Assembly (NCBI GenBank): GCA_905339165.1 | Contig: CAJPFH010000032.1 | Coordinates: forward strand, 1 to 64,000 | Direction of reading: 5' to 3' | DNA length: 64,000 nt | Origin: Flavobacteriales bacterium | GTDB taxonomy: Bacteria; Bacteroidota; Bacteroidia; Flavobacteriales_E; Vicingaceae | In this document: piece after piece, positions 18,927 through 40,074 of the stretch | Layout: every line of letters starts with the position of its first letter | Numbering within the stretch: position 1 is the first letter of the stretch | Position numbers and translations under genes: made by a program | The notes under the pieces: generated by a model | What the model saw: only the letters and a program-made list of their open reading frames with translations | Told to the model about the DNA's origin: nothing | The model's database searches: none

Positions 18927-20588
18927 CTAATAGATGTCATGTGTAGTATTGTAAATATTAAATTTACCGGTAGGGTTTTGTACCCAATCTCCTTTAATGA
19001 TTTGTTTTAATTCTAATGTTTTATCATTATAAATTAAAATACCGCTTGTTTTGCCCATAAAAACGGATACCCATAATTCATCACCTGCTTTGTTGTATTC
19101 CATGTGTACCATTCTTCCGTCAACTCCTTCAGGCATATCAATGGTTTTTTTATGTTCAAGAGTTTCTACATCAAAAACATCAATTTTAGAATGTAAAGAA
19201 GCATCGGGATTAAGAGTTCTATCTACCCAAAGGTGTTTCGATTTTGGGTGTGTTTTAACAAACAGTGCACCACCACCACTACCGGGGGCTTGAATTTCTT
19301 TCACAACCGTCCACTGTCCTTCGCCCGGGTTAGTTTTAATGAATGAAATTTTATTTTCGCCAAGGTGGCTGGTTATCCATAAACTTCCGAGTTTGTTCTT
19401 AATGTTTGCTCCTCTTCCGGGGTGAGGTTTAATACCTGTTTCAATCATAGTAACTAATTTTTTATTAGGTACATCAATAACTACCACTTTGTTACTAGCG
19501 TTTGCAGCCACCAAGAAGTATTTTCCGGTAGCATCCCAGCCCCCATCGTGTAAAAAGCGTGCGGAAGCAATTTCGGTTATTTTTGGATTTTTTGGATCAG
19601 AGTAGTCAACAATATCTACCATTCCTCTCTCTTTGATGTTGCAAATCCAAACGGGGTCGGTGTGCGAAGCTACAATAGAAGCTACACGAGCTTCTTCCAC
19701 AAACTCTTTTTCTCCATCGCAAGCATTTCCAGAGGTAGAGGTAACACTGATGGGTTCTAGTGTTTGTGCATCGAAAATAGCTATATGGGCCGGATTGTAA
19801 CCGCCAAACACAAGGTATTTATCTTCGTAGCCTTTAAACTTAGAAACTTCAACTGAGCGGGCATCGTAGGCTCCTCTTACCTCGGCAACAATGGTGGGTT
19901 TTTCGCTGTAAGTATCAATCATAGTAATTCTTCCGTCTCTTCCTACAGAATATATATATCTACCCGATGCCGATGTACGGAGAATATGTACGGCAAATCC
20001 TGTGGGTAAAACGGCTAATGCTTCCTTGGTATCGCCATCAATTACGGCTACTTTTCCGGCATCTCGCATAATTACACCAAAATAGTTGTCTATATTTCTC
20101 TTATGAACAGGCTTGGTGGGTCTATCTGCTACAGGAACAAAAACTTTCCAGGTGGCTTTCATTTCTTCCAAACCAAATGCAGGAATGGCAGGTGGGTCGA
20201 GTTGCAAAAATTTAGTCATTAAAGTAATCTCGTCATCTGTCATAATTCCTTTCCATTCGGGCATACCACCGGGTGTTCCGTTTTCTATAAAAGCTCTGAG
20301 GCCGGCTTCGCCCAATGTTTTTGTTCCGGGTGCAGGGCTACCTTCGGGTGCTTCGGGTAAGAGGTGTGGGCCTGTTGCTCCTTTACGGGCCGATCCGTGG
20401 CAACCTGCACATTTATCAAAGTAAATATTAGAGGCTTTTTCCATTTCGGCTGTTGTGAGCAGAATACCTTCCGTTTTTGGTTGTTCGGTCTCTGCTTTTT
20501 TCTCTTCTCCGGAGCCACCACAAGAGGAGAACACCACCATAGATGCTACTGCTATGTAGTGAAGATTTGTTTTAAGTTTTGCGTTCAT
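18927..20588 (-). CDS. nirS: Cytochrome cd1 (NirS-type nitrite reductase), variant active site
   Basis: The start at 20588 (MNAKLK) gives 553 residues with a lipobox at Cys23, so the protein is membrane-tethered instead of soluble like Pseudomonas NirS. Residues 50-130 form the haem c domain (CAGCH at 60-64; Met109 in GTPGGMP as ligand). Residues 145-553 form the eight-bladed d1 propeller. GFAVHILRTSASGRY holds the proximal His201. FLHDGGWD holds His347, matching one distal His of P. aeruginosa NirS (His369). The C-terminus GKFNIYNTTHDIY is nearly identical to NirS. The other distal His (His327, in YHPEPR) aligns with Val297 in FVEEAR. It would reduce nitrite to NO if that loss is tolerated; a NirN-like role is the alternative. 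No d1 biosynthesis genes are in the window. An FNR-like promoter precedes it. Confidence 0.85.
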   Translation of the reverse strand: MNAKLKTNLHYIAVASMVVFSSCGGSGEEKKAETEQPKTEGILLTTAEMEKASNIYFDKCAGCHGSARKGATGPHLLPEAPEGSPAPGTKTLGEAGLRAFIENGTPGGMPEWKGIMTDDEITLMTKFLQLDPPAIPAFGLEEMKATWKVFVPVADRPTKPVHKRNIDNYFGVIMRDAGKVAVIDGDTKEALAVLPTGFAVHILRTSASGRYIYSVGRDGRITMIDTYSEKPTIVAEVRGAYDARSVEVSKFKGYEDKYLVFGGYNPAHIAIFDAQTLEPISVTSTSGNACDGEKEFVEEARVASIVASHTDPVWICNIKERGMVDIVDYSDPKNPKITEIASARFLHDGGWDATGKYFLVAANASNKVVVIDVPNKKLVTMIETGIKPHPGRGANIKNKLGSLWITSHLGENKISFIKTNPGEGQWTVVKEIQAPGSGGGALFVKTHPKSKHLWVDRTLNPDASLHSKIDVFDVETLEHKKTIDMPEGVDGRMVHMEYNKAGDELWVSVFMGKTSGILIYNDKTLELKQIIKGDWVQNPTGKFNIYNTTHDIY

Positions 20589-20621: not shown

Positions 20622-20665
20622 CAAAGGTTTACTCTGCATGGCTGCATTGAAATGATTAGTGTCAA
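20622..20665 (-). promoter_or_regulatory. FNR-like box and -7 core of the nirS promoter
   Basis: The minus strand reads TTGACACTAATCAT (20652-20665; FNR consensus TTGATnnnnATCAA), then 23 nt, then ACCTTTG (20622-20628). The box centre is 33 nt upstream of the first T of TTTG, a class II position near -41. The NO-reductase operon and korA/nuoA promoters share this exact geometry. Confidence 0.75.
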
Positions 20666-20733
20666 ATGAATGACTGTTTTTTCGTATGATAAATATTGAG
20701 GTGCATCATGCAAGTATTTACGAAAACATATTA

Positions 20734-22629
20734 TTATAATGTAAGTTTACCTGAAAGAAAACGGAGTACTCTGCTTTCTCCTTTCATTAATTGAATGTTT
20801 GTGAGTTCGTGCCTAACTTCAGGAAACTCTGTTTCCGATAAAATGATTTTTATATTTTCGGGTACTTCTACCTCATCGTAAACATACACGGCAATATCTT
20901 TACGAAGACCTCGTGGACTGTAGTTTTTTGAAAACACCAATTCATTATTTTTTGTGTTGAATACTTCAATTTTTATTTCTGACCTTCCGCTGATAATGGG
21001 TACAGGCGATTGCATGTGCGAAAGATGTGATGAGTTATTTTGCAACTCGTGTATTGGAGAAGATGTATATTTCAAATTTAAAACAAGGGTTCGGTTTGTT
21101 GAAGAATAAAAAGAAAGTTTTTGATTACTGAAATATGGAATTGATACGAAGAATAAAGCACTCAATAAAATGGCAAATGCTATATTGACTTTTGAAAAAT
21201 CTTTTACGGTAAGTTCTTTTTTGTTTAAGTTCACATTTGCATTATTTATAAAATCGGAAATTGTTTTTTTAATATTCTGCCCCGATGTTACAAAAAGTAC
21301 GTTACTGTAATTAACCGAAGATTTTATTACTGGTCTGCGTTTATGATTTAATCGGTTTTTAGCCCACTCAGGTCCGAAACGATAATAGCACGATTCGCAG
21401 CCCAAAATCACTAATTTATTTTTTTCAGAAACCAAAGTTTCATCAAACGCTTTGGCGTTAATATTACCTACGCAAATTGTCTCCGATATTTTTGTGTTCT
21501 GTAAATCCAATCCGTTTAACTGGCTTTTTAAATAGCTACAGGTAATAATGTGATGCTGAGTATTTCCAGCACTATTAATTAAATGGGGCACTATTTTTTC
21601 AGAGGTTATGGCCATCGATTTACATGAGCCTACACAGATATTGCACCCAACACATTTCTCGTTATCTAACCATGCTTTGTCCTCGCCTTTTTCATTTTGT
21701 TTAATCAGAATGGAATCGTAGGGACAGTCTTCGGCACACTGCTGGCAACCATCACACAAATCGGTATTGATAACCGGAATGTAATTTTTGTTTTTCTTAA
21801 ATAGAAACGGAAAAGAGAAAATAAACAGAGTAACAATTAAAATCAAAATCCAGTTCCAACCAACGGAAAATATTTTCATAAAAAAATATCCAAAAAAGTA
21901 ATACCAGTTAAATCCTGTTTCGGTTGGTAATACGGTATCTTGTGCCGGAACATCTAATGAGGCATCAAAAAACAAAGAGATAAGCAACGTAAAAATTCCC
22001 GCATAAAGCATTATTTTTTTAGGAGGAAAAATACCCGGCTTACTTAAATGAATTTCGTGCAACCATAGAAATATAGCGGTAAATGCACAAAAGAAAATAT
22101 GCCCAAAAAGAGTTACTCTAAAAATGCCACCTAGGTATGCTAAATCATTTATTAAAAAAGCTCCGGCAATTGAAGGGTCGAAAAAGGGTAAATAGATTAA
22201 TAGTTTTGCTGTTAATACACCCAATAATTTTGCCTTTTGATCCCACACTAGAACAAAACCCGTTAAGCCTATAAAAACAGTAATAATTAAGGATACTATT
22301 CCAAACAACCACGATTTTACTCGCTTAAACTTACCGGTAATAAGCATGTGTAAAAAATGGAGCACAACAAACACCACAAATAAATCTGACGAGTATCTGT
22401 GTAAATTGCGCATCAAATTTCCTATCCATTGATTGGTAATTTCTACGGTAGATATGTACGATTGAGTGGGATCTACCTTATAAAACAAGAAAAGATAAAT
22501 ACCCGATACAAATGCTATGGCAAAAAAATAAATGGCTAAAGTGCCTAAATGATAAAAAGGATTGTATTTTGTAGAAAATATTTTGCTGAAAAATGCTCCT
22601 ACTCTTAAGAAGATGCCATGCCCGCTCAT
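20734..22629 (-). CDS. Cytochrome b / di-[4Fe-4S] ferredoxin / MvhD-like fusion protein
   Basis: 631 residues with three parts. Residues 25-275 are a cytochrome b6/bc1-type membrane domain with about six helices. His77/His91 and His177/His191 (each H-x13-H) supply both haems, and SGIYLFLFYKVDPT and GLTGFVLVWDQ are family motifs. Residues 290-340 carry two ferredoxin motifs, C292-x2-C295-x2-C298-x3-C302 and C326-x2-C329-x2-C332-x3-C336. Residues 355-440 resemble MvhD/FrhD iron-sulfur subunits, ending in GCESCYYRFGPEWAKNRL, with Cys364, 386, 411 and 414 as possible cluster ligands. A further helix (481-500) and an exported-looking tail follow. The fusion can link a quinone pool to an iron-sulfur partner. 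It lies between SCO and nirS on the same strand. I know no name for it. Confidence 0.8.
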   Translation of the reverse strand: MSGHGIFLRVGAFFSKIFSTKYNPFYHLGTLAIYFFAIAFVSGIYLFLFYKVDPTQSYISTVEITNQWIGNLMRNLHRYSSDLFVVFVVLHFLHMLITGKFKRVKSWLFGIVSLIITVFIGLTGFVLVWDQKAKLLGVLTAKLLIYLPFFDPSIAGAFLINDLAYLGGIFRVTLFGHIFFCAFTAIFLWLHEIHLSKPGIFPPKKIMLYAGIFTLLISLFFDASLDVPAQDTVLPTETGFNWYYFFGYFFMKIFSVGWNWILILIVTLFIFSFPFLFKKNKNYIPVINTDLCDGCQQCAEDCPYDSILIKQNEKGEDKAWLDNEKCVGCNICVGSCKSMAITSEKIVPHLINSAGNTQHHIITCSYLKSQLNGLDLQNTKISETICVGNINAKAFDETLVSEKNKLVILGCESCYYRFGPEWAKNRLNHKRRPVIKSSVNYSNVLFVTSGQNIKKTISDFINNANVNLNKKELTVKDFSKVNIAFAILLSALFFVSIPYFSNQKLSFYSSTNRTLVLNLKYTSSPIHELQNNSSHLSHMQSPVPIISGRSEIKIEVFNTKNNELVFSKNYSPRGLRKDIAVYVYDEVEVPENIKIILSETEFPEVRHELTNIQLMKGESRVLRFLSGKLTL

Positions 22630-22711
22630 TCTGATTCTATACTAAGTCTGCAATATGTTTGGATTTATAAAATAAAAAAATCGAATTGTAAATGCTTAAC
22701 AATTGCTATGT

Positions 22712-23488
22712 CTATAATGTTCTCAAATCTTTAAAAAATAAATCTCTTATAACAAAAAATAATAATCCCGATATAAAAAAAATACCCACACAAATTTGAA
22801 TTATAAATGCCCAGTCGATAATATATTTTTTTGATGTTGCATCGAATTTGAAACAATTCAACAAAAAGCCTTCGTAAAAACTAAGTGATGTTTTCTCTTT
22901 TTTTGCTTCCAGTACGGCCATATCAATATCGCGGGCACTTGGAAAAACACCGTACACAAAGCGAGATATTTTCATTTTAGGGGTTATTACTACCAGTACA
23001 TTCGGATGCAAATAATCGCCCGATTTTTCTTTTATAATTTCAAAATCTATTGAAGATAAAAGTAGCGAAGTGCCTTCTTTATCAGAAGCCACCACTTTCC
23101 AACTTTCTCCGGTAATGTCCCATCGTTTAGTAAATGTTTTTAAATCTTTAGGAGTATCGTAGTAATCGAACGAAAAAGTTAATACCTCATACTCTTTTCC
23201 CAGTCCTTTACTTTTTTTAATGGCCTTCTTTAAGTTGGCTGTAATAATGGAGCATGAGCTGGGGCATTTGGTGTAAATAGGACTTAAAACAATGGGTTTG
23301 TCTTTTATTAATTCAGATAGCTTATTTCGGTTGTTTTGGGAATCGAATACTTCTATATCGGCTAATTGCTTTCCCAAAAACTTGGTCTCGTTGGGGTCTC
23401 GTTGTGAATATAATGAATTATTAAATAAGCATAAAAAGGGCATCAAAAGGATACATCTTATTTTTTTATGAAGGAAGTGCAAACTCAT
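22712..23488 (-). CDS. SCO1/SenC-family copper chaperone
   Basis: Starting at 23488 (MSLHFLH) the protein has 258 residues. It has a signal peptide (to about LYSQ), a thioredoxin fold with the copper-binding CPSSC (C-x3-C) motif in SPIYTKCPSSC, and a conserved His in GDYLHPN. A C-terminal transmembrane helix near residues 225-247 is an addition to the usual SCO layout. SCO proteins deliver copper to the CuA site of haem-copper enzymes. The start overlaps the ctaB stop (ATGA). The gene sits behind the CuA-bearing enzyme genes, which fits a role in assembling that CuA centre. Confidence 0.9.
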   Translation of the reverse strand: MSLHFLHKKIRCILLMPFLCLFNNSLYSQRDPNETKFLGKQLADIEVFDSQNNRNKLSELIKDKPIVLSPIYTKCPSSCSIITANLKKAIKKSKGLGKEYEVLTFSFDYYDTPKDLKTFTKRWDITGESWKVVASDKEGTSLLLSSIDFEIIKEKSGDYLHPNVLVVITPKMKISRFVYGVFPSARDIDMAVLEAKKEKTSLSFYEGFLLNCFKFDATSKKYIIDWAFIIQICVGIFFISGLLFFVIRDLFFKDLRTL

Positions 23489-24372
23489 ATAAATTTTTCT
23501 GCAACTAAAAGAATAAATAAAACCGGCAAAAAAATTATGCAACCCAACATTAATGCAAGTGCCGATTTTTTGGTTCGTGCTCTGTAAAAAACAATTGAAC
23601 TAAGAAACAATAGGCTTCCAAATAAAGAAATAATCCACGAAACGTGCACCCCAACAGATTCATACATATACAAAAGTAAAGCGGTGGGTACAATTAAAAA
23701 GGTAGAAAACATAATTAACATTGATGCGTATTTGGACTGTATTCCGGGAGTTGGTAACATTTTAAATCCGGCTTTATTATAATCATCATTCAGAAGCCAG
23801 GCAACAGACCATGTATGTGGAAACTGCCAAACAAATTGCACTAAAAATAAAAGCACCGCATGAGTGGAAATAGAGCCCGTAGCAGCTGTACAACCAATTA
23901 ATACCGGCAAAGAACCGGCAAAGGCCCCGGGTATTACTGTTAGCCAAGTAATTTTTTTTAAAGGGGTATAGATACACACATACACCAACAATGCTAAGCA
24001 TCCTAATGTAAACGAAAGCAAATTAATTTTCGATAAAAGAAAAATACCCATAACAGAAAATATCATCCCAAGGATAATCGCTTCTCTAACTTCTAATCTG
24101 TAAGAAGGGAGAGGTCTTTCTGAGGTGCGTTTCATCAATGCATCTGACTTTATTTCTAATATCTGGTTAAAAATATTAGAAGCTCCAGTAATTAAAAATC
24201 CGCCCACCGAGAGTAACCATATCGTTACAAAATCAATGTTTCTGTTTACTGCCCACAAGTACGACATTGATGCAGAGAACACCACAAGCAATGACAAACG
24301 TAATTTAACTAATTGAGCATAATCCAAAAGTTTTACGCTCAACCCATTCAACATATTATTCAACGAAAACAT
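23485..24372 (-). CDS. ctaB: Protoheme IX farnesyltransferase (heme O synthase)
   Basis: A 295-residue UbiA-family membrane prenyltransferase with about nine helices. The first Asp-rich motif, ASNIFNQILEIKSDALMKRT, has N-x3-E-x3-D-x3-R near residue 68. The second is NDDYNKAGFKMLP, near residue 193. It attaches the hydroxyethylfarnesyl chain to haem b, making heme O. It lies 9 bp after the subunit I gene and overlaps SCO by 4 bp. Its presence in the operon suggests that the enzyme uses an O- or A-type haem. No heme A synthase (ctaA) gene is in the window. Confidence 0.95.
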   Translation of the reverse strand: MFSLNNMLNGLSVKLLDYAQLVKLRLSLLVVFSASMSYLWAVNRNIDFVTIWLLSVGGFLITGASNIFNQILEIKSDALMKRTSERPLPSYRLEVREAIILGMIFSVMGIFLLSKINLLSFTLGCLALLVYVCIYTPLKKITWLTVIPGAFAGSLPVLIGCTAATGSISTHAVLLFLVQFVWQFPHTWSVAWLLNDDYNKAGFKMLPTPGIQSKYASMLIMFSTFLIVPTALLLYMYESVGVHVSWIISLFGSLLFLSSIVFYRARTKKSALALMLGCIIFLPVLFILLVAEKFI

Positions 24373-24381
24373 TTTCTGTTT

Positions 24382-26061
24382 CTATTGAATTTCCCAAATT
24401 GCCGCAAGCCACTTCCAATTCAAGAAATAAAATACCAAGAACGTAACAAGGAAAATAATAGTAAGCACCAATGTTCCGGGAGCTTCATATTTACGTTTAT
24501 GTGGAGTAGTTTCTTCTCCAAGAGGAGCCGCTATGGCAAGTTGCATATCTTGCGGACCGTTTACCCTAGGGCCAAAAAATACAGAAACAACAATAATTAA
24601 TATCCAAATGAGCATGGATAAAAAAGAGAGTATTCCGCCCAACCCAAATAGAACCCAAACGAAGCCCGAAGCAAGGTTGAAATCATACGTAAAGGGGCCT
24701 CCGGTAAACGCAATATCATAATGCCTTCTGGGAATACCAAACATTCCCAATGCAATCATTCCGATGGCTAATAATGCTATGCCAAAGAAGAACATCCATG
24801 GTTGAATCTTTGCCAGTTTAAAGGCCACTATTTTTCTGCGAAACATTAGAGGAACTAAATAGTATGTAATACCCATAAAGGTTAGGGTAGTTCCTATTAC
24901 CACAGTGCCTTTAAAGTGCCCCACAATAGCTAGTGTATTATGCACAATAATATTGGTTTGTTCCATACCATATATTACGCCTGTTATTCCACCAATAAAT
25001 CCAAAGCCTATTATAGCCAGTGTTATAGAACTAAATGCAGGATTTCCCCATGGCAATTTAATGAGCCAATCGAACAAGCCTTTGTTATGTCCTAACCTTC
25101 TTTGAGCCGCCTCCATAGAAGAGGGAACGGCAAAGGCATGAATCATCGAAGCAAGCACTGCAAGGTACATGGCGTAACTAGTATTCCACACTTTCCAGGT
25201 TGAACTTACTGCAGGGTCAACTAATAGATGGTGAGCCGAAGCAATACTAATGAAAAGAATATAGAATAAGAACGCCACCCTCGAAACCTTTTCGTTAATG
25301 GAACTTCCGCCTAAAACCAAACGTACTGACAAATACCAAATACCTACCATGGCACATACATTTATTTGTTGTGCCGAGTGCCCGAAGCCCCACCAAACCA
25401 AGCGATACCAAGCGGGGTCTATGCTTTCAACCAAACCCAACGACCATAAAAAAGTAGGCACATAAACCAATGCTCCGGAAAGCAATGTTAATACGGCAAT
25501 AATCGCTGCTGCCATTAGTGCATAAGTAAATAAGGGAAGGGTTTTGCCTACTTTCCCTTCTTTTTTTGCTAGGGCAGCATTGCCAAAAAACAATCCTACC
25601 CCGATAAGAGCTCCAACGGCAAAAAGTATTATACCCAAGTAATAAAGTGGATGTGCCTTTAGCGGAACATACGATGTCATTGTTACATCTGCATTGCCAC
25701 TTAGTATCATTACATCGGTAAGAATAAAGCCGGTGGCCATTAATATAAACGACAGCCACCCTAACTTGGGAGCACAAAACCTTGAATTTAAAACCACGGT
25801 TGAACCAAAGTAAAGGCCCGCAATTTCAAAAAATACAATCCAAAATACCAATGCGTTTACACCGTGTAAGCCAATTATTCTGTAATACCAAGGAGAGGAT
25901 AATACATGAAAATCTTGCCAACGAGTAAATACGAGGAGTATAGCTCCTAATGCGGCAATAAGTAAAGAAACTACAGCAAAAACTGCATTTAACCGAAACA
26001 ATTTTTCAGTAGTATTATCTACTTTAAAGCCTGTTATATCACATGTTCTAAAAGTACTCAT
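24382..26061 (-). CDS. Haem-copper reductase subunit I, nitric oxide reductase type (HxxxQ)
   Basis: 559 residues with 12 or more transmembrane helices of the haem-copper superfamily, closest to B-family layout. CuB ligands His228, His277 and His278 are present. High-spin haem ligand His382 is in VGHFKGT. Low-spin ligand His66 is in GLHGVN. Where oxidases have the cross-linked Tyr four residues after the first CuB His (HPxxY), this protein has Gln232 (GHSAQQIN). The second low-spin ligand position, two after His382, is Lys384 instead of His. Loss of the Tyr argues against O2 reduction and for NO reduction, as in the eNOR/sNOR-type families. I recall Gln at this place for eNOR but cannot verify it here. 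Subunit II, a small subunit, ctaB and SCO are in the same operon under an FNR-like promoter. Confidence 0.82.
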   Translation of the reverse strand: MSTFRTCDITGFKVDNTTEKLFRLNAVFAVVSLLIAALGAILLVFTRWQDFHVLSSPWYYRIIGLHGVNALVFWIVFFEIAGLYFGSTVVLNSRFCAPKLGWLSFILMATGFILTDVMILSGNADVTMTSYVPLKAHPLYYLGIILFAVGALIGVGLFFGNAALAKKEGKVGKTLPLFTYALMAAAIIAVLTLLSGALVYVPTFLWSLGLVESIDPAWYRLVWWGFGHSAQQINVCAMVGIWYLSVRLVLGGSSINEKVSRVAFLFYILFISIASAHHLLVDPAVSSTWKVWNTSYAMYLAVLASMIHAFAVPSSMEAAQRRLGHNKGLFDWLIKLPWGNPAFSSITLAIIGFGFIGGITGVIYGMEQTNIIVHNTLAIVGHFKGTVVIGTTLTFMGITYYLVPLMFRRKIVAFKLAKIQPWMFFFGIALLAIGMIALGMFGIPRRHYDIAFTGGPFTYDFNLASGFVWVLFGLGGILSFLSMLIWILIIVVSVFFGPRVNGPQDMQLAIAAPLGEETTPHKRKYEAPGTLVLTIIFLVTFLVFYFLNWKWLAAIWEIQ

Positions 26062-26072
26062 AATATATAATA

Positions 26073-26633
26073 TTAATATCCGTAATTAGCTAATTCGTTT
26101 TCATCTTCAATAACTACAATTTTTCCAATCATTAGATGGTGTCCTATTCCGCAAAACTCGTTACACACTATCATGTACTCGCCTGTTTTATTGGGTTTAA
26201 AATCTAATACATAATCATAGTTGGGAAAAACCATAAAATTCATGTTAATGGGCTGTACCGAAAACCCGTGCATCACATCTTTCGATGAAATATGGAACTT
26301 ATACCATTCGTCTTTTTTCAATACGATAACCGAAGACCAACGCCACATCTGTGCTAGAAGAAAAACATCAGATTCAGGTTTGGGCATAACAACCGGTATT
26401 CCGTTGTCTTCGCCAATTTGATTTTGTTCAATAAACGAGTTGGTAAGTGATGTAAACTCCTCTGGGGTAGTGTAATAAGTAACACTCGATGGATTTTGTT
26501 TTCCGTAAACGTGCCACAAAATCATCCAAAAGAACATAGCAATACACACTACGGTTGCCGCGATAATCCAACCTTTTTCATCGCGGGCTATTTTCTTGTG
26601 TATCCATCCGGAAGGGGGGGCTTCTAAACTCAT
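26073..26633 (-). CDS. CuA-containing subunit II of the haem-copper reductase
   Basis: 186 residues. One N-terminal helix (residues 22-42) anchors a periplasmic cupredoxin domain. The CuA ligands are all present: His122 in DVMHGFSV, then Cys157, Cys161, His165 and Met168 in CNEFCGIGHHLM. The layout (single helix) is that of B-family subunit II. Electrons therefore enter from a cytochrome c or copper protein, not directly from quinol. The segment between helix and cupredoxin (48-90) is longer than usual. It lies 11 bp upstream of subunit I and 12 bp after the small subunit gene. Confidence 0.92.
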   Translation of the reverse strand: MSLEAPPSGWIHKKIARDEKGWIIAATVVCIAMFFWMILWHVYGKQNPSSVTYYTTPEEFTSLTNSFIEQNQIGEDNGIPVVMPKPESDVFLLAQMWRWSSVIVLKKDEWYKFHISSKDVMHGFSVQPINMNFMVFPNYDYVLDFKPNKTGEYMIVCNEFCGIGHHLMIGKIVVIEDENELANYGY

Positions 26634-26645
26634 ATTTTTATTTTT

Positions 26646-26819
26646 TTATTTGGTGAATAAATCTTTTACTTCTGCAGGAATACTCTTTATGAGTATAATT
26701 TCTGCCCAACCCCAAAATATGTAGGAAACAAAATAAACGCCTACTCCCAAAATGAGGAGCAGCCACATATTATTCAGCAAGGATTCAAGAAAAGTGGTTG
26801 ATTGATTTTCTTCGCTCAT
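26646..26819 (-). CDS. Small single-helix subunit of the haem-copper reductase
   Basis: 57 residues from ATG 26819 (MSEENQ). The frame is open further upstream but would run into the promoter. It has one central hydrophobic helix (about residues 17-40, WLLLILGVGVYFVSYIFW) and charged ends. Its position as first gene of the operon, with one helix and such a size, matches the subunit IIa-like peptides of ba3-type enzymes. The function is presumed structural. Homology cannot be proven for so short a protein. Confidence 0.6.
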   Translation of the reverse strand: MSEENQSTTFLESLLNNMWLLLILGVGVYFVSYIFWGWAEIILIKSIPAEVKDLFTK

Positions 26820-26842
26820 AAATATAATTTTTACATTTCGAG

Positions 26843-26886
26843 CAAAGGTGTTTATTGGTAACAAATACCTTTATGATTGTAATCAA
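26843..26886 (-). promoter_or_regulatory. FNR-like box and -7 core of the NO-reductase operon
   Basis: The minus strand reads TTGATTACAATCAT (26873-26886; one mismatch to TTGATnnnnATCAA), then 23 nt, then ACCTTTG (26843-26849). The predicted leader to ATG 26819 is about 19 nt. It has the same box-to-TTTG spacing and the same ACCTTTG as the nirS promoter, and lies next to the Fnr-like gene. Confidence 0.8.
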
Positions 26887-26935
26887 TCGGCAATATATAT
26901 TATCGTATTCAATTCCTTACGAAAACATATCTATT

Positions 26936-27640
26936 TTAAGAAAGATGAACGCCAAATGACGCTATCTTTTTCAACTCGTTAAGTTCATTGATAATGATGT
27001 CTTTTTTATCTAATAGAATTAGGTTTTCCGATTGAAATTCTGATAGAATTTTTGACACCTGCTCTTTAGTGGTACCTGCGTAATCAGAAAGATCCTGCCT
27101 TGAAAGAGTGATATTTAACCGGTTGTTTTTATCGGTACCAAAAGTAGTATTTAGGTACAACAAAGTTTCAGCTACTTTTTCTCGTACATTCATTTGTGCT
27201 AGGTTAAATTGCATTATTTCTGAGTTCTCTAATTCTTTAGAAAAAAACAGTAATAACTTAAATGCAACGCGTGAATTGTTTTCCAAAAAAGTGATGAAGA
27301 AATCTTTAGGAAAAAGGCAAATGGACGAATCTTCGATGGTAGATGCCGATACCGGATAATATTTTGTATTTAATCCTCTATGCCCTAGTATATCTCCTGT
27401 TTTGGAGAAACGAATAATATGATTTTTACCGTTTATTCCGGTTTTATACACTTTTATGATACCCGAATGGATAAAACTGATACTATTTACGGGCATATCT
27501 TCATGAAATATTTTTTGATTTTTGGAGCAAACCAACGTAGTTTTTTTTTCTTCCACTATTTTAACGGCTTCGGGGTCGTTAATTTCTTTCATTAAGCACG
27601 GGGCCTTACAGTCGGCACAAAGCAATCTTTGTCGGTTCAT
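26936..27640 (-). CDS. Crp/Fnr-family regulator with FNR-like cysteines
   Basis: 234 residues. The N-terminus has Cys8, Cys11 and Cys15 (CADCKAPC), and a further Cys108 lies at the end of the cyclic-nucleotide-binding-like beta-roll (SSICLFPKD), like Cys122 of E. coli FNR. Together these could hold an oxygen- or NO-sensing [4Fe-4S] cluster. Cys38 is an extra. A long dimer helix (about 125-150) leads to a winged helix with the recognition segment LSRQDLSDYAGTTKEQVSKIL; the Glu and Ser of E-x3-S fit an FNR-type TTGAT reader. The gene lies directly upstream of the NO-reductase operon on the same strand, with the FNR-like box in the gap. It has its own TACATTTG element. Confidence 0.85.
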   Translation of the reverse strand: MNRQRLLCADCKAPCLMKEINDPEAVKIVEEKKTTLVCSKNQKIFHEDMPVNSISFIHSGIIKVYKTGINGKNHIIRFSKTGDILGHRGLNTKYYPVSASTIEDSSICLFPKDFFITFLENNSRVAFKLLLFFSKELENSEIMQFNLAQMNVREKVAETLLYLNTTFGTDKNNRLNITLSRQDLSDYAGTTKEQVSKILSEFQSENLILLDKKDIIINELNELKKIASFGVHLS

Positions 27641-27662
27641 GATATGTTTTCTTCTTGCACAA

Positions 27663-27670
27663 CAAATGTA
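27663..27670 (-). promoter_or_regulatory. -7 element for the Fnr-like regulator gene
   Basis: The minus strand reads TACATTTG, a perfect TAnnTTTG, 22 nt before ATG 27640. No FNR-like box lies at the distance seen in the regulated promoters, so the gene is probably not autoregulated through one. Confidence 0.5.
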
Positions 27671-27682
27671 ATGCTCATTTAC

Positions 27683-28630
27683 TTAATCTTTATGAGCTTC
27701 TGTTATTTTTTTTCCTTGCCATGTATTTTGCTGATTCATGGTGTTAACGAGGGTATTTACAAATTGATAATTTTTTAGGCCGTTCCATTTTGGTGCAATG
27801 AGAAGGTGAGCGGGCGATTCATTTAAAAAACGTTGTACCACAATATTTTCTGGTATTTGTTCTAACATGTTAATCACAATTTCTTTATACTCATTGGGAT
27901 ATAAAAGAGAGTATTCAGAAGATTTTTGAAGGTAGTCGTTTGCCATTTGTGTATGTTTTAAAATTTGCAGATGGTGCATTTTAATCATACTTATGGGTAA
28001 TTGAGAAAGTCTTTTGGCATGATTTACAAAGGTTTCAGGATTTTCGCCAGGTAAACCTATAATTAAATGAGCTCCTACGGGTATGCCCCTGGAGGCAACT
28101 TGCTTGATAGCCACAATGGAATCATTATATGTATGGCAGCGATTTATTTTTTTTAAGGTTTTATCTTCGGTTGATTCTACCCCTAATTCTACCGAGATAT
28201 AGTATTTTCCGGCAATTTCTGAAAGCAGATCTAAAATTTCGTTATTTAAACAGTCGGGTCGAGTAGAAATTACGATGCCTTTTATTCCGGGGTAATTCAG
28301 TGCCTCGTAGTACATTTCTCTGAGGCTATTTACATAGCTGTACGTATTGCTGTATGATTGGAAATAGGCAAGAAACAAGGGGGTGTTTTTCTTCGTGGCA
28401 AATTTTTTCATGCCCCTTTCCAGTTGGTTGGCGATGCTGTTTTTTACATCGGTATAATAAGGGCTAAATGATTTGTTATTACAGTACGTACACCCATTTA
28501 ATCCTTTTGTTCCATCACGGTTTGGGCAGGTTAAACCTGTGTTAATAGAAAGTTTTTGTGCAGGGGAGCCAAAAACTTTCTTTAAATATTGATGATAGGT
28601 ATAAAAGGGAACGGTTCCGGGTATTACCAC
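27683..28630 (-). CDS. Radical SAM protein of the TIGR01212 (YhcC-like) family
   Basis: 315 residues. The cluster-binding region reads GLTCPNRDGTKGLNGCTYCNN, with its cysteines in the C-x3+-C-x2-C style specific to this radical SAM group. Further family motifs include YFQSYSNTY, GIVISTRPDCLN, ELGVES and HLIIGLPGE. The reaction is not established in the family. No in-frame ATG precedes the cluster motif, and an in-frame stop lies seven codons upstream of 28630, so the GTG at 28630 is the probable start. It lies between the Fnr-like gene and korB, with gaps of 42 and 46 bp. Confidence 0.85.
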   Translation of the reverse strand: MVIPGTVPFYTYHQYLKKVFGSPAQKLSINTGLTCPNRDGTKGLNGCTYCNNKSFSPYYTDVKNSIANQLERGMKKFATKKNTPLFLAYFQSYSNTYSYVNSLREMYYEALNYPGIKGIVISTRPDCLNNEILDLLSEIAGKYYISVELGVESTEDKTLKKINRCHTYNDSIVAIKQVASRGIPVGAHLIIGLPGENPETFVNHAKRLSQLPISMIKMHHLQILKHTQMANDYLQKSSEYSLLYPNEYKEIVINMLEQIPENIVVQRFLNESPAHLLIAPKWNGLKNYQFVNTLVNTMNQQNTWQGKKITEAHKD

Positions 28631-28676
28631 TTTAGAAGAATTTCTTTAGCTCAAACACCCGAAACCATTCTTTTGT

Positions 28677-29708
28677 TTAGTTAATTGTCCAGGTTTTATC
28701 GCCCGAAAGGATAGAGTCTAAATTAGGTTCTCCTTTTTTTGCTTTTGCATTTTCAATTTGAGATTGCATCATTTCCTCGTATACGGGGCGTTCTTCGGCA
28801 AAAAGCACTCCAAACGGACGTGGAAAATGTACATCAGGCACAACAGCATCAAACATTCTGGCAAGCAAATTAGCCTTTGTTTTATCTTGTTCGTTATGTA
28901 TCCAAAGATCGTTTGCACTAACTCCAGTTGTTGTTAAATCAACTATCTCAGGAGTGAGGCCATTCAACTTAATTCCTTTGTTGTTGTTCTCTCCATAAAT
29001 TAGGGGTTGGCCATTTTCAACATAGATGGCTTCCTCTTTTTTGGTTTCTTTGTCGGAATATGCAAAGAAGGCTCCATCGTTAAAGATAGGGCAATTTTGA
29101 TACACTTCAACAAATGAAGTTCCTTTGTGCTGATTGGCTTTTTTTAAGATAGCCTGCATATGTTTTGGGTCTCTGTCTAATGTTCTGGAAACAAAACTTG
29201 CATTTGCTCCTAAAGCTAATTCAGCAGGGTTGAAAGGGGCTTCAATAGTGCCAAAAGGGGTAGATTTTGTAATTTTTCCTTTTTCGGAAGTGGGTGAATA
29301 TTGCCCTTTGGTAAGCGAATAAATTTGGTTGTTAAACATTAGGTAATTTAAATCTAAATTTCTTCGCATTAAATGGATAAAATGGTTACCACCTATGGCG
29401 GTTGAATCACCATCACCCGAAACAACCCAAACGCTTAAATTAGGGTTGGCCGATTTTACACCCGATGCAATGATACCCGCCCTACCGTGAATGCTGTGCA
29501 TTCCGTATGTTTCCATATAATAGGTAAAACGGGAAGAGCAGCCAATTCCGGAAATGAAAACAAAATTTTCGCGGGGAATACCTAAATCAGGAAAAATAGT
29601 TTGTACTTGTTTCAATATAGAATAATCACCGCACCCAGGACACCATTTTACATCTTGGTCGGGAACAAAATCTTTGGCGGTTAATTTATTTTCACTAGTT
29701 GTTATCAT
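28677..29708 (-). CDS. korB: 2-oxoacid:ferredoxin oxidoreductase, beta subunit
   Basis: 343 residues. Residues 15-35 have KWCPGCGDYSIL, and residues 95-125 the thiamine diphosphate motif GDGDSTAIGGN ending in a NN pair (MFNNQIYSLTKGQYS). These are features of the beta subunit of 2-oxoglutarate- or 2-oxoacid:ferredoxin oxidoreductases. It has no [4Fe-4S] domain of its own beyond the Cys pair region. With the fused gamma-alpha subunit encoded 4 bp upstream it forms a two-subunit enzyme that oxidises 2-oxoglutarate (or a similar 2-oxoacid) to the acyl-CoA and reduces ferredoxin. 2-oxoglutarate is the likeliest substrate by family; pyruvate cannot be fully excluded. Confidence 0.9.
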   Translation of the reverse strand: MITTSENKLTAKDFVPDQDVKWCPGCGDYSILKQVQTIFPDLGIPRENFVFISGIGCSSRFTYYMETYGMHSIHGRAGIIASGVKSANPNLSVWVVSGDGDSTAIGGNHFIHLMRRNLDLNYLMFNNQIYSLTKGQYSPTSEKGKITKSTPFGTIEAPFNPAELALGANASFVSRTLDRDPKHMQAILKKANQHKGTSFVEVYQNCPIFNDGAFFAYSDKETKKEEAIYVENGQPLIYGENNNKGIKLNGLTPEIVDLTTTGVSANDLWIHNEQDKTKANLLARMFDAVVPDVHFPRPFGVLFAEERPVYEEMMQSQIENAKAKKGEPNLDSILSGDKTWTIN

Positions 29709-29712
29709 TTGG

Positions 29713-31593
29713 TTAGTTATTTAATAGTTCGTTTACTTTTGCTTTTATTTCATCGGCAGAAAATGGTACTCCTTTAATTTTGTTTAATGAGATGGTAGGA
29801 ATAAGGTACTTAGAACGTATTAAAACAGATAGTTGTCCGTTGTTCATTTCGGGAATAAGAATTTTATCAAATTTTCTTAATACGGCTTCTAAATTTTTTG
29901 GAAAAGGGTTTAAATAACGCAAATGGATATGCGAAACTTCTTTCCCTTCTTTACTCATTTCAATTAAGGAGTTTCTCACGGTGCCATAGGTTGAACCCCA
30001 TGTTAAAACAGCCAATTTCCCGGATTCTTTTCCGAAGTTCACTTTTTGTTCGGGGATATAATCTGCAATTTTATCTATTTTTTGCTGTCTTAGTTTTACC
30101 ATGAATTCATGGTTTTCGGGGTCGTGGCTAGGGTGGCCTGTTTCGTGTTTGCGTTCTAATCCTCCAATTCTGTGTTCTAATCCTGGTGTGCCGGGTATTG
30201 CCCAAGGACGAGAAAGTTTTTCATCTCGTTTGTATGGTAAATAAGGTCCTTCTTTCCATTCGTCTTTCGAAGCAAAGTGAACTTTAATCATTGGTAAAGC
30301 CGCTTCTGTAGGGTATCTCCAAGGTTCAGAGCCATTGGCAATATATCCATCGGTTAAACAAATAATAGGGGTCATGTGTTCTAACGCAATGCGAGCTGCT
30401 TCAAATACAGTATCGAAACAATCGGAGGGAGAAGCTGCTGCAATTACCGGAAGCGGTGCTTCTCCGTGTCGGCAATACATGGCTTGTAATAAATCAGCTT
30501 GTTCTGTTTTGGTGGGCAAACCGGTAGAAGGTCCTCCTCTTTGTACATTAATAACTACCAAAGGAATTTCTAAAATAGTAGCTAAGCCAAGAGCTTCAAT
30601 TTTTAAAGAAAGCCCGGGTCCGGACGTGGTGGTTGCCGCCAAATGTCCGGTGTAAGAGGCTCCAATAGAAGAGCAAATTCCTCCAATTTCATCTTCGGCT
30701 TGGAATGTTTTTACTCCAGATGCTTTATATTTAGAAAGATCGTGTAAAATGTCGGTTGCAGGAGTTATAGGGTATGACCCTAAAAATAAAGGGATACCTG
30801 CTTTTTTAGATGCGGCAATTAATGCAATAGCTGCAGCATGGTTTCCTGTAATACTTCGGTAATTGCCTTTTGCCAGTTCGGCCGAAGCTACCCGGTAACG
30901 ACTGGTAAATATTTCTGTGTTCTCGCCATAATTCCATCCGGCTTGAAGGGCTAAAATATTCCCTTCGGCAATATCGGGTTTCTTGCCAAATTTTTCCTTT
31001 ATGAAGGCTTCAGTATGCTCAGTGGGCCTGTCAAACATCCAGTAGATTAAACCCAATATAAACATGTTTTTTGCACGTTCCACTTCCTTGTTGCCAAGGT
31101 TGGTTCCACTTAAACTTTCTTTAGTGTGCTTTGTAATGTCTATTTCTAATACCTTATAGTCGGATAAAGAGCCGTCCTTAAGCGGATCTGCGTCATCGGA
31201 ATATTGAGCTAAACGCAAACTCTTCTTGTCGAATCCGGCTGTGTTCGCAATAATTACACCTCCTTTTTTTATATTTTTCAATTCTACCTTTAATGCTGCG
31301 GCATTCATGGCCACCAACACATCGTACGAGTCGCCTGGAGTGTTTATTTCCTTACTTCCAAATTGAATTTGGAAACCGGAAACGCCTGCTATGGTGCCGG
31401 CCGGAGCACGTATTTCAGATGGGTAATCGGGGAATGTACAAATATCATTTCCAAAAAAAGCCGATGTGTCCGAAAACTGTGTTCCGGTAAGTTGCATTCC
31501 ATCGCCAGAGTCACCCGAAAATCTTATTACTACATTTTCTGTATCAATAAAATTTACTTTGTTACCCGCAACTTGTTCTTGTGCTGTATCCAT
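29713..31593 (-). CDS. korA: 2-oxoacid:ferredoxin oxidoreductase, fused gamma-alpha subunit
   Basis: 626 residues. The N-terminal gamma domain (about 18-205) has FSGDSGDGMQLTG and DYPSEIRAPAGT. The alpha domain (from about 225) has GSYPITPATDILHDL, GGICSSIGASYTG and TSGPGLSLKIEALGLA, followed by the GGPSTGLPTK turn. The fused gamma-alpha form with a separate beta is characteristic of the two-subunit KorAB enzymes. The gene is divergent from nuoA; the shared intergenic region carries one FNR-like palindrome placed symmetrically for both promoters. A ferredoxin gene closes the opposing complex I operon, so the product, reduced ferredoxin, can feed complex I. Confidence 0.92.
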   Translation of the reverse strand: MDTAQEQVAGNKVNFIDTENVVIRFSGDSGDGMQLTGTQFSDTSAFFGNDICTFPDYPSEIRAPAGTIAGVSGFQIQFGSKEINTPGDSYDVLVAMNAAALKVELKNIKKGGVIIANTAGFDKKSLRLAQYSDDADPLKDGSLSDYKVLEIDITKHTKESLSGTNLGNKEVERAKNMFILGLIYWMFDRPTEHTEAFIKEKFGKKPDIAEGNILALQAGWNYGENTEIFTSRYRVASAELAKGNYRSITGNHAAAIALIAASKKAGIPLFLGSYPITPATDILHDLSKYKASGVKTFQAEDEIGGICSSIGASYTGHLAATTTSGPGLSLKIEALGLATILEIPLVVINVQRGGPSTGLPTKTEQADLLQAMYCRHGEAPLPVIAAASPSDCFDTVFEAARIALEHMTPIICLTDGYIANGSEPWRYPTEAALPMIKVHFASKDEWKEGPYLPYKRDEKLSRPWAIPGTPGLEHRIGGLERKHETGHPSHDPENHEFMVKLRQQKIDKIADYIPEQKVNFGKESGKLAVLTWGSTYGTVRNSLIEMSKEGKEVSHIHLRYLNPFPKNLEAVLRKFDKILIPEMNNGQLSVLIRSKYLIPTISLNKIKGVPFSADEIKAKVNELLNN

Positions 31594-31630
31594 AATGTTT
31601 TTTGAATAATGTGTAACTTATTTTATTCAA

Positions 31631-31704
31631 CAAATTAATTCCAAAACTGTTCATTAAAATATGACAAGTATCATACTTTAGTAATAACGCTATATTTTAT
31701 TTTG
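31631..31704. promoter_or_regulatory. Divergent korA/nuoA promoter region with a shared FNR-like box
   Basis: The palindrome ATGACAAGTATCAT (31661-31674) lies midway. To the left, after exactly 23 nt, is CAAATTA (31631-31637), the minus-strand -7 element TAATTTG of korA. To the right, after exactly 23 nt, is TATTTTG (31698-31704), the -7 element of nuoA. The box differs from TTGATnnnnATCAA at three positions, so binding would be weaker than at the NO-reductase operon. Confidence 0.65.
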
Positions 31705-31724: not shown

Positions 31725-32075
31725 ATGGAAGCCGAAAGTTTAATATTATTTTTTATTGCAGGACTTGTGTTGGTAGGAGGAGGAATATTAGCCTCGCAGT
31801 TGTTGGCTCCAAAATTAAAAAACAAAACAAAGGAAGATGCCTACGAGTGTGGTATTCCAACTGAAGGGGCTGCATGGATGCAGTTTAAATCAGGGTACTA
31901 TTTGTTTGCTATATTATTCTTAATCTTTGAAATTGAAACGGTGTTTGTGTTTTTATGGGCATTAACCATGAAAACACTAGGTATGTTAGCCTTTATCGAG
32001 ATTCTTATTTTCTTTTTTATATTAGGAATTGGTTTACTTTATGCTTGGAAAAAAGGAGCCTTAAAATGGGATTAA
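31725..32075 (+). CDS. nuoA: NADH-quinone oxidoreductase subunit A
   Basis: 116 residues from ATG 31725; a TTG further upstream is rejected because it overlaps the promoter region. It has three transmembrane helices and the family motif [15 protein letters not shown] between helices 1 and 2. The Cys loop and the following [11 protein letters not shown] segment form part of the quinone-site seal at the membrane/hydrophilic junction of complex I. It is the first gene of an 11-gene operon. The stop overlaps nuoB by 10 bp. Confidence 0.95.
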
Positions 32076-32632
32076 AAGAACAAAATAATTTGCAAAATTT
32101 TCCGGGCGAAATTCACAGTGCCGGTAACTCAAATATTATAGTTACTTCTTTAGATGGAATTGTAAATTGGTCGAGAGCAAATTCTTTATGGCCTTTGGTT
32201 TTTGGAACAAGTTGTTGTGCCATTGAAATGATGGCTGCAGGCTCGTCTAAACATGATTGGTCTAGGTTTGGAACCGAAGTAGCCAGAGCCACTCCTCGTC
32301 AAGCCGATTTAATTGTGGTGGCAGGAACCATTGTGCATAAAATGGCTCCGGTATTAAAACGCCTTTACGAACAAATGGCCGAACCAAAATATGTCATAGC
32401 TATGGGTGCTTGCTCTGTATCCGGAGGGCCATTTTTTTATAATTCTTATTCGGTGGTAAAGGGTGTGGACCATATTATTCCGGTTGATGTATATGTGCCA
32501 GGTTGTCCCCCTCGCCCCGAAGCCCTTTTGTATGGTATTATTAAGTTACAAGAAAAAATAAGAGATAAAAAATTATTGAAAGACAAACCCTCAACACCCA
32601 TCATCATTGATAACACTCCAAACAATGGATAG
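32066..32632 (+). CDS. nuoB: NADH-quinone oxidoreductase subunit B
   Basis: 188 residues from ATG 32066 (MGLKEQ); the longer open frame merely covers nuoA. Motifs are [13 protein letters not shown] (two Cys), MGACSVSGG and [15 protein letters not shown]. The four Cys bind cluster N2, which reduces quinone. The C-terminal tail after residue 165 is Lys- and Pro-rich. The gene overlaps nuoA by 10 bp and nuoC by 8 bp, so these genes are translationally coupled. Confidence 0.97.
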
Positions 32633-33086
32633 AGAGGCATTAAAAAATAAATTGACTGAAGTTTTTCCGGACGCTTCCTATTCGGAAAACAAGCAGTTTA
32701 TTATCCTTACTACCACTTCGGATAAAATTACCGGAGTAGCAGAAACACTTAAAAATAATACCGATTTTAGGTTCGACTATCTGTTTTGCATAACCGGAGA
32801 AGACTGGTTAAATTATTTCATAATTACTTATCATTTACGATCTACACATCTTGGGCATGAACTGGTATTAAAAGCAAAAATTGAGAACCGGGAAAAACCC
32901 GAAATAGAAACACTTTCTCATTTATACCCCACAGCCGAACTAAACGAAAGAGAAATTTTTGAAATGTATGGAATCCATTTCCTTCATCATCCCGATTTAC
33001 GTAAGTTGTTATTGCCCGATGAGTGGGAAGGATTTCCGATGAGAAAAGATTATTACGATCCCCTTCATATTGTTGAACTCGAATAA
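32625..33086 (+). CDS. nuoC: NADH-quinone oxidoreductase subunit C
   Basis: 153 residues from ATG 32625 (MDREAL). The typical 30 kDa-subunit segment is at the C-terminus: [42 protein letters not shown], here spread over residues 108-148. It is a separate gene, not fused to nuoD. It forms part of the hydrophilic arm near the quinone site. Its stop is immediately followed by nuoD with no gap. Confidence 0.95.
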
Positions 33087-34205
33087 ATGACAACAGCCGC
33101 AATAGATACAAGCGAAACAAAAGAGTACTTCATTAACATGGGGCCGCAGCACCCGTCTACCCATGGGGTGCTTCGGTTATTACTTACGTTAGAAGGAGAA
33201 ATTATTAAAAATGTTGAGCCCCACATCGGGTACGTTCATCGTGCCATTGAAAAAATGTGCGAAAAAAGTTCATTCCAGCAAATTATACACTTAACGGATA
33301 GATTAGACTACCTCTCTTGCCACATGAACAACGAAGCCGTATGTTTGGCTGTAGAACAAGGCTTGGAAATGGAAGTGCCGGAAAGAGTAAAAGTAATACG
33401 CACTATTATTGATGAGTTAAACCGCATTTCATCGCATACGCTTTGGTGGGGAGTAATGGGCATGGATATGGGAGCTATCACTTCCTTTTTGTACGGATTT
33501 CGAGAACATGAAATGATTACCGAAATTTTTGAAGAAACTTGTGGAGCACGCTTAACTATGAGTTACAATGTGCCCGGGGGGTTGATGTTTGATATTCCCC
33601 CACATTTTCAAAAAATGGTAAAAGATTTTCTTGTTCATTTCAAAAAGAAATTGCCGGAGTATGACACTCTGCTTTCCAATAATATTATTTTTACCGAACG
33701 CACTAAAGGGATTGGCTACCTTAGCAAAGAAAATGCCATTGCTTTTGGCGTAACAGGTCCCTCTGCACGGGCGTCTGGTTTTGCTTGTGATGTGAGAAAA
33801 CTTAAACCATACAGTGCCTATCATAAAGTAAATTTTAAAGAGATTATTTTTACCGAAGGCGATTGTTTTGCGAGATACAAAGCTAGGATTGATGAAATGT
33901 GGGAATCTGTTTCAATCATAGAACAATTAATTGATAATATACCCGAAGGCGATTATTTTGTAAAAACAAAAGCGGTTATAAAATTACCTGTAGGCGAGTA
34001 TTATCAGAGTGTAGAAAGTGCAAGAGGCGAGTTTGGTGTATACATAGTAAGTGACAACAAAAAAAATCCTTACCGAGTAAAATTCCGATCGCCCGGATTT
34101 GCCAATCTTTCAGCCTTAAACAAAATAGCACAAGGCTGTAAAATTGCCGATTTGGTAGCTATAATGTCAACATTAGATTTAGTAATACCTGATATAGACC
34201 GATAA
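33087..34205 (+). CDS. nuoD: NADH-quinone oxidoreductase subunit D
   Basis: 372 residues, the 49 kDa subunit that lines the quinone pocket. Visible are [10 protein letters not shown] (with the quinone-site His), [35 protein letters not shown] and the C-terminal VIPDIDR. There is no nuoE, nuoF or nuoG anywhere downstream, so the hydrophilic arm lacks the NADH-oxidising module. It starts at 33087 directly behind nuoC. Confidence 0.97.
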
Positions 34206-34215
34206 TAATAAAACA

Positions 34216-35307
34216 TTGAAAATACTTAGTATATACGATTTTTCGAACCTAACGCAAGCCATACACACTTGGCTTTCCGGAAAAATGTCGGTTGTTTCAA
34301 CGCAGGTAGTTGAAATGATTTTGGTGGGAACAGTTTTTCTATTGTTTTTTGCTGTGTTAGGTTTAGTGCTGGTGTATGCCGAAAGAAAAGTGTGTGCCAT
34401 AATACAAGTTCGCTTGGGCCCTATGAGAGTGGGAAAATGGGGTACTGCACAAACCCTGGCCGATTTTATAAAATTAGTGTTTAAAGAGCCATTAATTACC
34501 CGCGATGCCGATAAGTTTTTATTTAATCTAGCTCCGTTTATAATTATCATTGCATCATTTATGGCCGTAGCTGTAATGCCTTTTGCAAAAGGTTTACAGG
34601 CAATGGATTTTGATATAGGATTATTTTACATATCAGCCGTATCGTCTATTGGCGTTACCAGTATTCTGATAGCCGGTTGGGCTAGTAACAGCAAATACTC
34701 ACTGATTGGAGCTATACGCAGTGGTGCTCAAATTTTAAGTTACGAACTTTCGGCAGGCTTATCCCTGCTCACTATTGTTATTTTAACAGGAAGTTTACAA
34801 CTTTCCGAAATTGTAGAAAGCCAGGCCGATGGCTGGTGGATATGGAAAGGGCATGTTTCTTCAATTATTGCTTTTGTTATTTTTATTATTGCAGGAACAG
34901 CCGAAACCAATCGTGGTCCTTTTGATATGGCCGAAGCCGAATCTGAATTAACGGCAGGTTTTCACACCGAGTATTCGGGAATTAAATTTGCCTTTTTCTT
35001 TTTAGCCGAATATGTAAATATGTTCATTATAGCAGCTATTGGAGCTACTGTATTTTTTGGCGGATGGATGCCATTACATGTTGGAAATTTTGAAGCATTC
35101 AACAACATCATGGATTACATTCCTTCGGTGGTTTGGTTCTTTATGAAAGTATCGGCTATCATCTTTTTAATGATGTGGTTTCGTTGGACTTTTCCTCGTT
35201 TGCGGATTGACCAATTACTCACTTTAGAATGGAAATATTTATTGCCACTAAGTTTAATGAATATTTTATTAATGGCATTTTTATCACTTATGGGTTGGCA
35301 TTTTTAA
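34216..35307 (+). CDS. nuoH: NADH-quinone oxidoreductase subunit H
   Basis: About 363 residues with eight helices. Motifs are [20 protein letters not shown] near residue 55 and [30 protein letters not shown] near 235, the latter with the acidic residues of the E-channel. The start is probably the TTG at 34216; the next in-frame ATG would remove 23 residues that still look family-like. It follows nuoD by 10 bp. NuoH connects the hydrophilic arm to the proton-pumping membrane arm. Confidence 0.93.
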
Positions 35308-35316
35308 ATAAAAAAC

Positions 35317-35799
35317 ATGAATGAAGTAACCGAATATTTCAGCGATATTTTTAAGGGAGTTCGCTCTCTTCTAAAAGGTATGTCTGTTACCGGGTATTAC
35401 TTTCTTCATCCCAAAGAAATTATTACCCAACAATACCCCGAAAACCGAGATGTATTAAAAGTTCCGGAACGCTTCAGAGGAGAGTTGGTAATGCCTCATA
35501 CCGCAGATAATCAACATCGTTGTACGGGCTGTTCGGCTTGCCAGTTAGCTTGTCCAAATGGTTCTATTATTATAGTTAGCGACCGTATTGAAACCCCAGA
35601 GGGGAAAAAGAAAAAAATTATAGATAAACACGTGTACAATTTAGCCATGTGTACTTTTTGCAATTTGTGCGTACGAGCTTGCCCTACCGATGCCATAGTA
35701 ATGTCGAATGATTTTGAGCATGCTACCTACGACCGAGGAGACCTAATAAAAATATTAAACCAACCGGGTTCTAAAGTATTGGAAGGAATAGAAGAATGA
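35317..35799 (+). CDS. nuoI: NADH-quinone oxidoreductase subunit I (ferredoxin-type)
   Basis: 160 residues with two [4Fe-4S] motifs, CTGCSACQLACP (near residue 69) and CTFCNLCVRACP (near residue 109), clusters N6a and N6b. In a complex without the NADH module, these clusters are the likely entry point for electrons from a docked ferredoxin. The N-terminal amphipathic region is normal for the family. The gene overlaps nuoJ by 4 bp. Confidence 0.95.
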   Translation: MNEVTEYFSDIFKGVRSLLKGMSVTGYYFLHPKEIITQQYPENRDVLKVPERFRGELVMPHTADNQHRCTGCSACQLACPNGSIIIVSDRIETPEGKKKKIIDKHVYNLAMCTFCNLCVRACPTDAIVMSNDFEHATYDRGDLIKILNQPGSKVLEGIEE

Positions 35800-36625: not shown

Positions 36626-36628
36626 CGT

Positions 36629-38554: not shown

Positions 38555-38564
38555 ATAGTTAAGT

Positions 38565-40064: not shown

Positions 40065-40074
40065 TGCAACAGAC

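Follow-up and report, generated by a model that had tools for sequence, protein, structure and literature searches.

The window, by which we mean the whole stretch of 64,000 nucleotides analysed here, carries genes for nitrite reduction (nirS), probable NO reduction (nor operon), 2-oxoacid:ferredoxin oxidoreductase (korAB) and complex I (nuoA-N), together with an Fnr-like gene, and their promoter regions contain FNR-type boxes and TTTG cores (Table 1). Judged from its residues, the product of 24382-26061 probably belongs to a B-family NO reductase that has a CuA subunit. The nearest matches of this subunit I were ba3-type oxidases, but its cross-linked Tyr is replaced and Lys stands at the second His of ba3 GHFH.

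Table 1. Genes and promoter elements discussed in the text, with their positions in the window
Feature	Position	Strand	Remarks
nirS, cytochrome cd1 nitrite reductase	18927..20588	-	Pfam Cytochrom_D1 4e-112; start 33 nt past TTTG
−7 element of nirS, AACC-TTTG (TAnnTTTG-like)	20622..20629	-	22 nt past box; assigned from class-wide logo
FNR-type box of nirS, TTGACACTAATCAT	20652..20665	-	identical in same-genus genome
B-family heme-copper subunit I, probable NO reductase	24382..26061	-	without active-site Tyr (HPIVY = HSAQQ)
COX2-like subunit, CuA-type motif (CNEFCGIGHHLM)	26073..26633	-	Pfam COX2
57-aa membrane ORF, probable first nor-operon gene	26646..26819	-	from translation; start 23 nt past TTTG
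−7 element of nor operon, CACC-TTTG	26843..26850	-	
FNR-type box of nor operon, TTGATTACAATCAT	26873..26886	-	
Fnr-like protein P0001	26936..27640	-	CADCKAPC, central Cys, helix TKEQVSK; last gene of korA-korB-mnmL-fnr
mnmL-type radical SAM gene, between korB and fnr	27683..28630	-	TIGR01212 8e-86
korB	28677..29708	-	
korA, 2-oxoacid:ferredoxin oxidoreductase alpha	29713..31593	-	TIGR03710 2e-198
−7 element of korA, TTAA-TTTG	31631..31638	-	
Single box common to korA and nuoA, ATGACAAGTATCAT	31661..31674		
−7 element of nuoA, TTAT-TTTG	31697..31704	+	
nuoA-N cluster without nuoE, F, G; 11 subunits	31725..41490	+	nuoA start 20 nt past TTTG
−7 element of fifth site, TATT-TTTG	62271..62278	-	5' of small lipoprotein-like ORF 61849-62211
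Box of fifth site, ATGATCTACATCAT	62301..62314	-	overlooked in the preliminary description

Boxes and cores in the window

The preliminary description of this DNA had reported a box at nirS, the nor operon, korA and nuoA, with exactly 26 nt between box and TTTG in each case. Re-reading of the sequence confirmed the positions of boxes and cores as well as the exact spacing at all four promoters. An additional promoter (62271-62314, minus strand), absent from that description, also has TTTG 26 nt from its box. The window holds five boxes that fit WTGAYN4RTCAW, and TTTG lies at 26 nt on at least one side of four of them, or on 5 of the 10 flanks. With a TTTG background of 0.86% of positions, this corresponds to P ~1e-8, or ~4e-7 once a free choice among 40 spacings is paid for. 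The half-sites of the boxes differ (TTGAC, TTGAT and ATGAT). At the four promoters described earlier the match to TAnnTTTG is exact for TTTG and partial for TA, with T in place of A in the −7 elements of korA and nuoA. The seven bases ACCTTTG, pointed out before as common to nirS and the nor operon, are literally identical, but this identity has little weight, since nirS of the same-genus genome reads ATCTTTG and ACCTTTG recurs at a crp gene of another contig.

Between korA and nuoA a single box serves both directions in the own genome and in the same-genus genome. The kor-nuo region of a further relative (G091, L180:2523-2559) contains two boxes 23 bp apart, one per direction. Each has a TTTG of its own at exactly 26 nt, an argument for the use of both directions. 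Beyond the genus and this split form, the shared korA/nuoA box was absent from the remaining kor loci fetched. The lack of nuoE, F and G is at most a hint of a ferredoxin-fed complex I, because a NuoF-domain gene is present as a separate 584-aa open frame on contig C26 (L274).

Spacing and core across the genome and the class

A genome-wide search for WTGAY-N4-RTCAW-N26-TTTG, proposed in the preliminary description, returned 12 exact matches against 0 reversed ones in the 3.16-Mb genome. One candidate, on contig C34, was set aside as a chance match because of its position inside coding sequence. The box alone was not over-represented in the own genome (79 flanks versus 78 in the control), so that box counts provide no evidence and only the spacing counts do. 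TTTG occurred at offset 26 in 12 of the 79 box flanks, whereas other offsets had a mean of 0.53 and a maximum of 3 (P = 2.8e-13). Offset 26 thus stands far above the others, contrary to the possibility, raised beforehand, that the spacing might be equally frequent by chance. The ATGAY..RTCAT boxes of the distant genome G029 gave the same spacing spectrum, with 12 of 61 at 26.

Across 41 genomes (the own genome and 40 relatives) the motif matched 266 times versus 22 reversed, and at least once in 41 of 41, although single matches can be chance. A sample of the phylum, searched with the stricter TAnnTTTG core, yielded 145 versus 2 matches in 49 genomes of the class and 33 versus 2 in 149 genomes of other classes, which makes the layout mainly a class feature; the genomes in these multi-genome counts are related and hence not independent, and the counts are not formal probabilities. 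Allowing one mismatch brought the search near the control level (67 versus 59); apart from TTTA variants common to both genomes of the genus, such matches were therefore not counted towards the regulon. On these counts, the recurrence of the layout in 41 genomes looks like a shared low-oxygen switch and not like coincidence.

The promoter core was read from a logo built on 58 sites whose ATGAY..RTCAT boxes are symmetric and which had been chosen for box and TTTG only. T (0.69) and A (0.84) appeared at four and three bases before TTTG. The TA pair was recovered without having been selected for, and the core is therefore the Bacteroidota −7 element TAnnTTTG, in agreement with the earlier assignment. 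That chance alone, through AT-rich DNA and a spacing picked afterwards, produced the layout is next to impossible: TTTG is common and the boxes by themselves are not enriched, but the genome-wide P of ~3e-13, the class-wide excess and this independent TA signal at the predicted place all stand against it.

Since the distance to TTTG is fixed at 26 nt, the logo places the TA pair 22 nt from the end of the box. At class II FNR promoters of E. coli the site is centred at −41.5 in front of a TATAAT core, with TTGAT half-sites and the recognition helix ETISR, features drawn in part from an FNR alignment. With its centre at −41.5, a 14-bp site leaves 22 bp to the −12 base, which is the classical activating position. 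The boxes studied here are 14-bp FNR-type palindromes, and the −12/−11 pair begins 29.5 bp downstream of their centre. Their geometry equals that of a site centred at −41.5, in line with the preliminary description, which had noted that FNR-type activators bind near −41. The TGA-N6-TCA palindrome and the 22 bp from box to T-12 A-11 are thus the same as in E. coli, whereas the core is TAnnTTTG instead of TATAAT, the consensus half-site is ATGAY instead of TTGAT, and the usual helix is ETxIR instead of ETISR. The −7 element and the short leaders are those of Bacteroidota −33/−7 promoters (TTTG / TAnnTTTG), which differ in that the −33 region here is a weak T-rich stretch past the box and an activator site lies upstream. 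This stretch follows the box directly, at about −33 to −30 in the class II register, and may be a residual −33 element; the logo of 58 sites contained no strong −33 element for an unaided promoter. The distance from TTTG to ATG had a median of 23 nt (57 sites, five distant genomes), as expected for short leaders and compatible with a class II start site 41-42 bp from the box centre.

With a probability of about 0.8, the window sites are promoters of class II that depend on an FNR-type activator and are used by the housekeeping RNA polymerase of Bacteroidota. A dimer of the FNR family would bind (A/T)TGAY-N4-RTCA(A/T) centred at −41.5 and replace a strong −33 element. It would contact housekeeping polymerase positioned on TAnnTTTG (T-12 A-11 to G-5), 22 nt from the box, and transcription would begin about 5 nt past TTTG. 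At korA/nuoA, one box would be correctly placed for two divergent promoters. The box could instead be a repression operator whose fixed spacing reflects steric blocking of the promoter. For some boxes in family relatives, 3-18 nt separate the end of the box from the ATG of fnr itself, and repression of that gene is plausible there, but a site that ends 22 nt upstream of −12 occupies an activating position and these promoters have no strong −33 element with which to work unaided, so that repression is very improbable as a general explanation.

Genes of the predicted regulon

The single regulon suggested earlier for nitrite/NO reduction, KorAB and complex I gains support from the shared box-N26-TTTG layout and from the functional coherence of its targets. 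In the window these are nirS, the nor operon, korA-korB-mnmL-fnr, nuoA-N and the small lipoprotein-like gene. Elsewhere in the own genome the motif precedes genes for a NarK-type transporter and the porin that follows NarK, oah, a fasciclin gene next to the nos cluster (nosZ), and a pair of neighbouring Crp/Fnr genes. With a TTTA core it precedes mobA, a hemerythrin gene and a gene for a ModE-like regulator. Some good boxes of the own genome do not have TTTG at 26. One lies before the narG cluster (L016:6118-6131) and has TTTG at 22, as in the same genus; another is flanked by bcrC and a dehydrogenase-like gene. Like the partial match of the window cores to TAnnTTTG, such boxes count against the class II reading.

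The exact motif was also found in distant families, before bcrC, bcrD, moeA, ModE-like genes, norB, RIC/ScdA, hemerythrin and FNR genes, and also before a cytochrome c gene resembling the one that precedes narG. In five family relatives the gene that follows it is divergent from fnr and codes for the N-terminus of a P-type ATPase (domain checked for one). Contig C6 of this Bacteroidota genome (L018, L017) carries oah and the genes of a class I benzoyl-CoA reductase, bcrCBAD; G027, G029 and G039 have bcrC/bcrD as well, there under the box-N26-TTTG promoter type. TTGAY..RTCAA boxes with TTTG at 26 stand before DinB-like genes of several family relatives (L044, L049 and L051) and may form a second regulon. 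Judged by eye, part of the TTGAT..ATCAA sites of the own family lie in front of DinB-like genes, and these sites may belong to another regulator.

We compared the predicted regulon with known systems. HcpR of Bacteroides and Porphyromonas is likewise a Bacteroidota activator of the CRP/FNR family and acts on nitrogen-oxide stress genes. It is heme-dependent (PMC12750200), and HcpR2 has the motif GTAACnnnnGTTAC, with hcp as the sole target in most Bacteroides (PMC1274295). The boxes found here do not fit GTAACnnnnGTTAC but read WTGAYnnnnRTCAW, and the present system differs from HcpR in its FNR-like cysteines and the motif ATGAYnnnnRTCAT. The nitrogen-oxide regulons of NnrR, DNR and FNR in Proteobacteria share nir, nor and related targets with FNR-like boxes (PMC1274295), whereas here kor/nuo, oah and benzoyl-CoA reductase are also included and the promoter core is another one. 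A CRP/FNR survey of an anammox-reactor community, which included Flavobacteriales FLB_49, assigned the Flavobacteriales homologue to a MalR-like carbon response (PMC8510549). That survey also dealt with Bacteroidota CRP/FNR homologues under aerobic/anoxic cycling, whereas the regulon predicted here, in a same-genus genome, is an FNR-type denitrification regulon.

We found no description of the box-N26-TTTG architecture in the open-access literature. The regulons of HcpR, NnrR, DNR and FNR are already known (PMC1274295, PMC12750200); shown here are the layout and its conservation, and what seems new is the combination of a Bacteroidota −7 promoter with an FNR-type layout of class II. With odds that we place slightly above even, the layout would mark an anaerobic regulon common to the Bacteroidia. 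FNR-like proteins with an altered helix (ETxIR) and half-site (ATGAY) would activate TAnnTTTG promoters in the E. coli class II register and switch on denitrification along with ferredoxin-linked carbon metabolism, namely korAB, an 11-subunit complex I cluster and benzoyl-CoA reduction, with one dimer on one box able to serve two divergent promoters. Few accounts exist of anaerobic gene control in environmental Bacteroidota, and the low background of WTGAYN4RTCAW-N26-TTTG would allow the low-oxygen regulon of a Bacteroidia genome to be drafted, uncultured denitrifiers and N2O reducers from wastewater included. The layout yields direct predictions of transcript starts, and it would mean that the register of class II activators is retained even where the promoter core has changed completely.

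Candidate FNR-family regulators

Seven proteins with a CRP/FNR domain are encoded in the own genome. One of them, at C45:53409-54122, has CDTCDNKDSIILC, the helix TTETTIR and its own upstream box-N26-TTTG. It has the N-terminal Cys cluster and the central Cys expected of putative [4Fe-4S] ligands, LICYIP aligning with MVCEIP of FNR, with a different N-terminal spacing (CX2CX8C). The recognition helix departs from E..SR, since TETTIR keeps E and R but has I for S. The solved FNR series 5cvr/5e44 was among its best matches. The NCBIfam Fnr model was also its best match, at 104 bits and below the cut-off of 228; the protein is therefore FNR-like but not a member of that curated subfamily. In a survey that covered the fetched part of the matches to P0001 and may miss paralogues, 29 genomes yielded 43 proteins with a helix of the ETxIR type; box-N26-TTTG precedes nine of these proteins, and some are without the cysteines.

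The preliminary description had named the Fnr-like protein of the window as the driver of these promoters. Its gene does have the kor promoter on one side and the nor promoter on the other, the protein shares three N-terminal and one central Cys with FNR in the alignment, and its helix E..SK is close to E..SR of E. coli FNR. Helices of the KEQVSK type, however, were seen only in G000, G001 and G039 among the proteins surveyed, and none was found among the proteins examined from G027 or G036, which hold 18 and 11 copies of the motif; the motif is thus abundant in genomes that yielded no close relative of this Fnr. In addition, no box stands directly upstream of this gene, which ends the kor operon, while the four-cysteine FNR of contig C45 carries the same promoter as its presumed targets and has a widespread helix type. 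We therefore consider it unlikely that the window protein is the regulator. Its position as last gene of korA-korB-mnmL-fnr makes it more likely a target or co-regulator than the main driver, and the main regulator is most likely the FNR at C45:53409-54122, a choice based on co-occurrence and the recognition helix. By analogy, this FNR would be an oxygen sensor.

A tentative extension is that paralogues are layered on the same boxes, the C45 FNR responding to oxygen and the window and NarK-linked FNRs to NO/nitrate, like FNR, NNR and DNR of Proteobacteria. Three FNR-like proteins with N-terminal and central Cys are encoded in one genome, two of them beside nitrogen-oxide genes, and the half-sites vary between TTGAC, TTGAT and ATGAT; against this, no class of sites could be tied to one paralogue. 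Such layering is possible but stands at less than even odds, and we keep the C45 FNR as the main regulator, whose sites may also be used by the window Fnr and by the FNR linked to NarK. The adjacent CRP/FNR genes at L015:9410-10123 and L015:8608-9300 each have their own box-N26-TTTG, and the pairing recurs in other genomes; the second protein of the pair has a helix of the NYLYK type.
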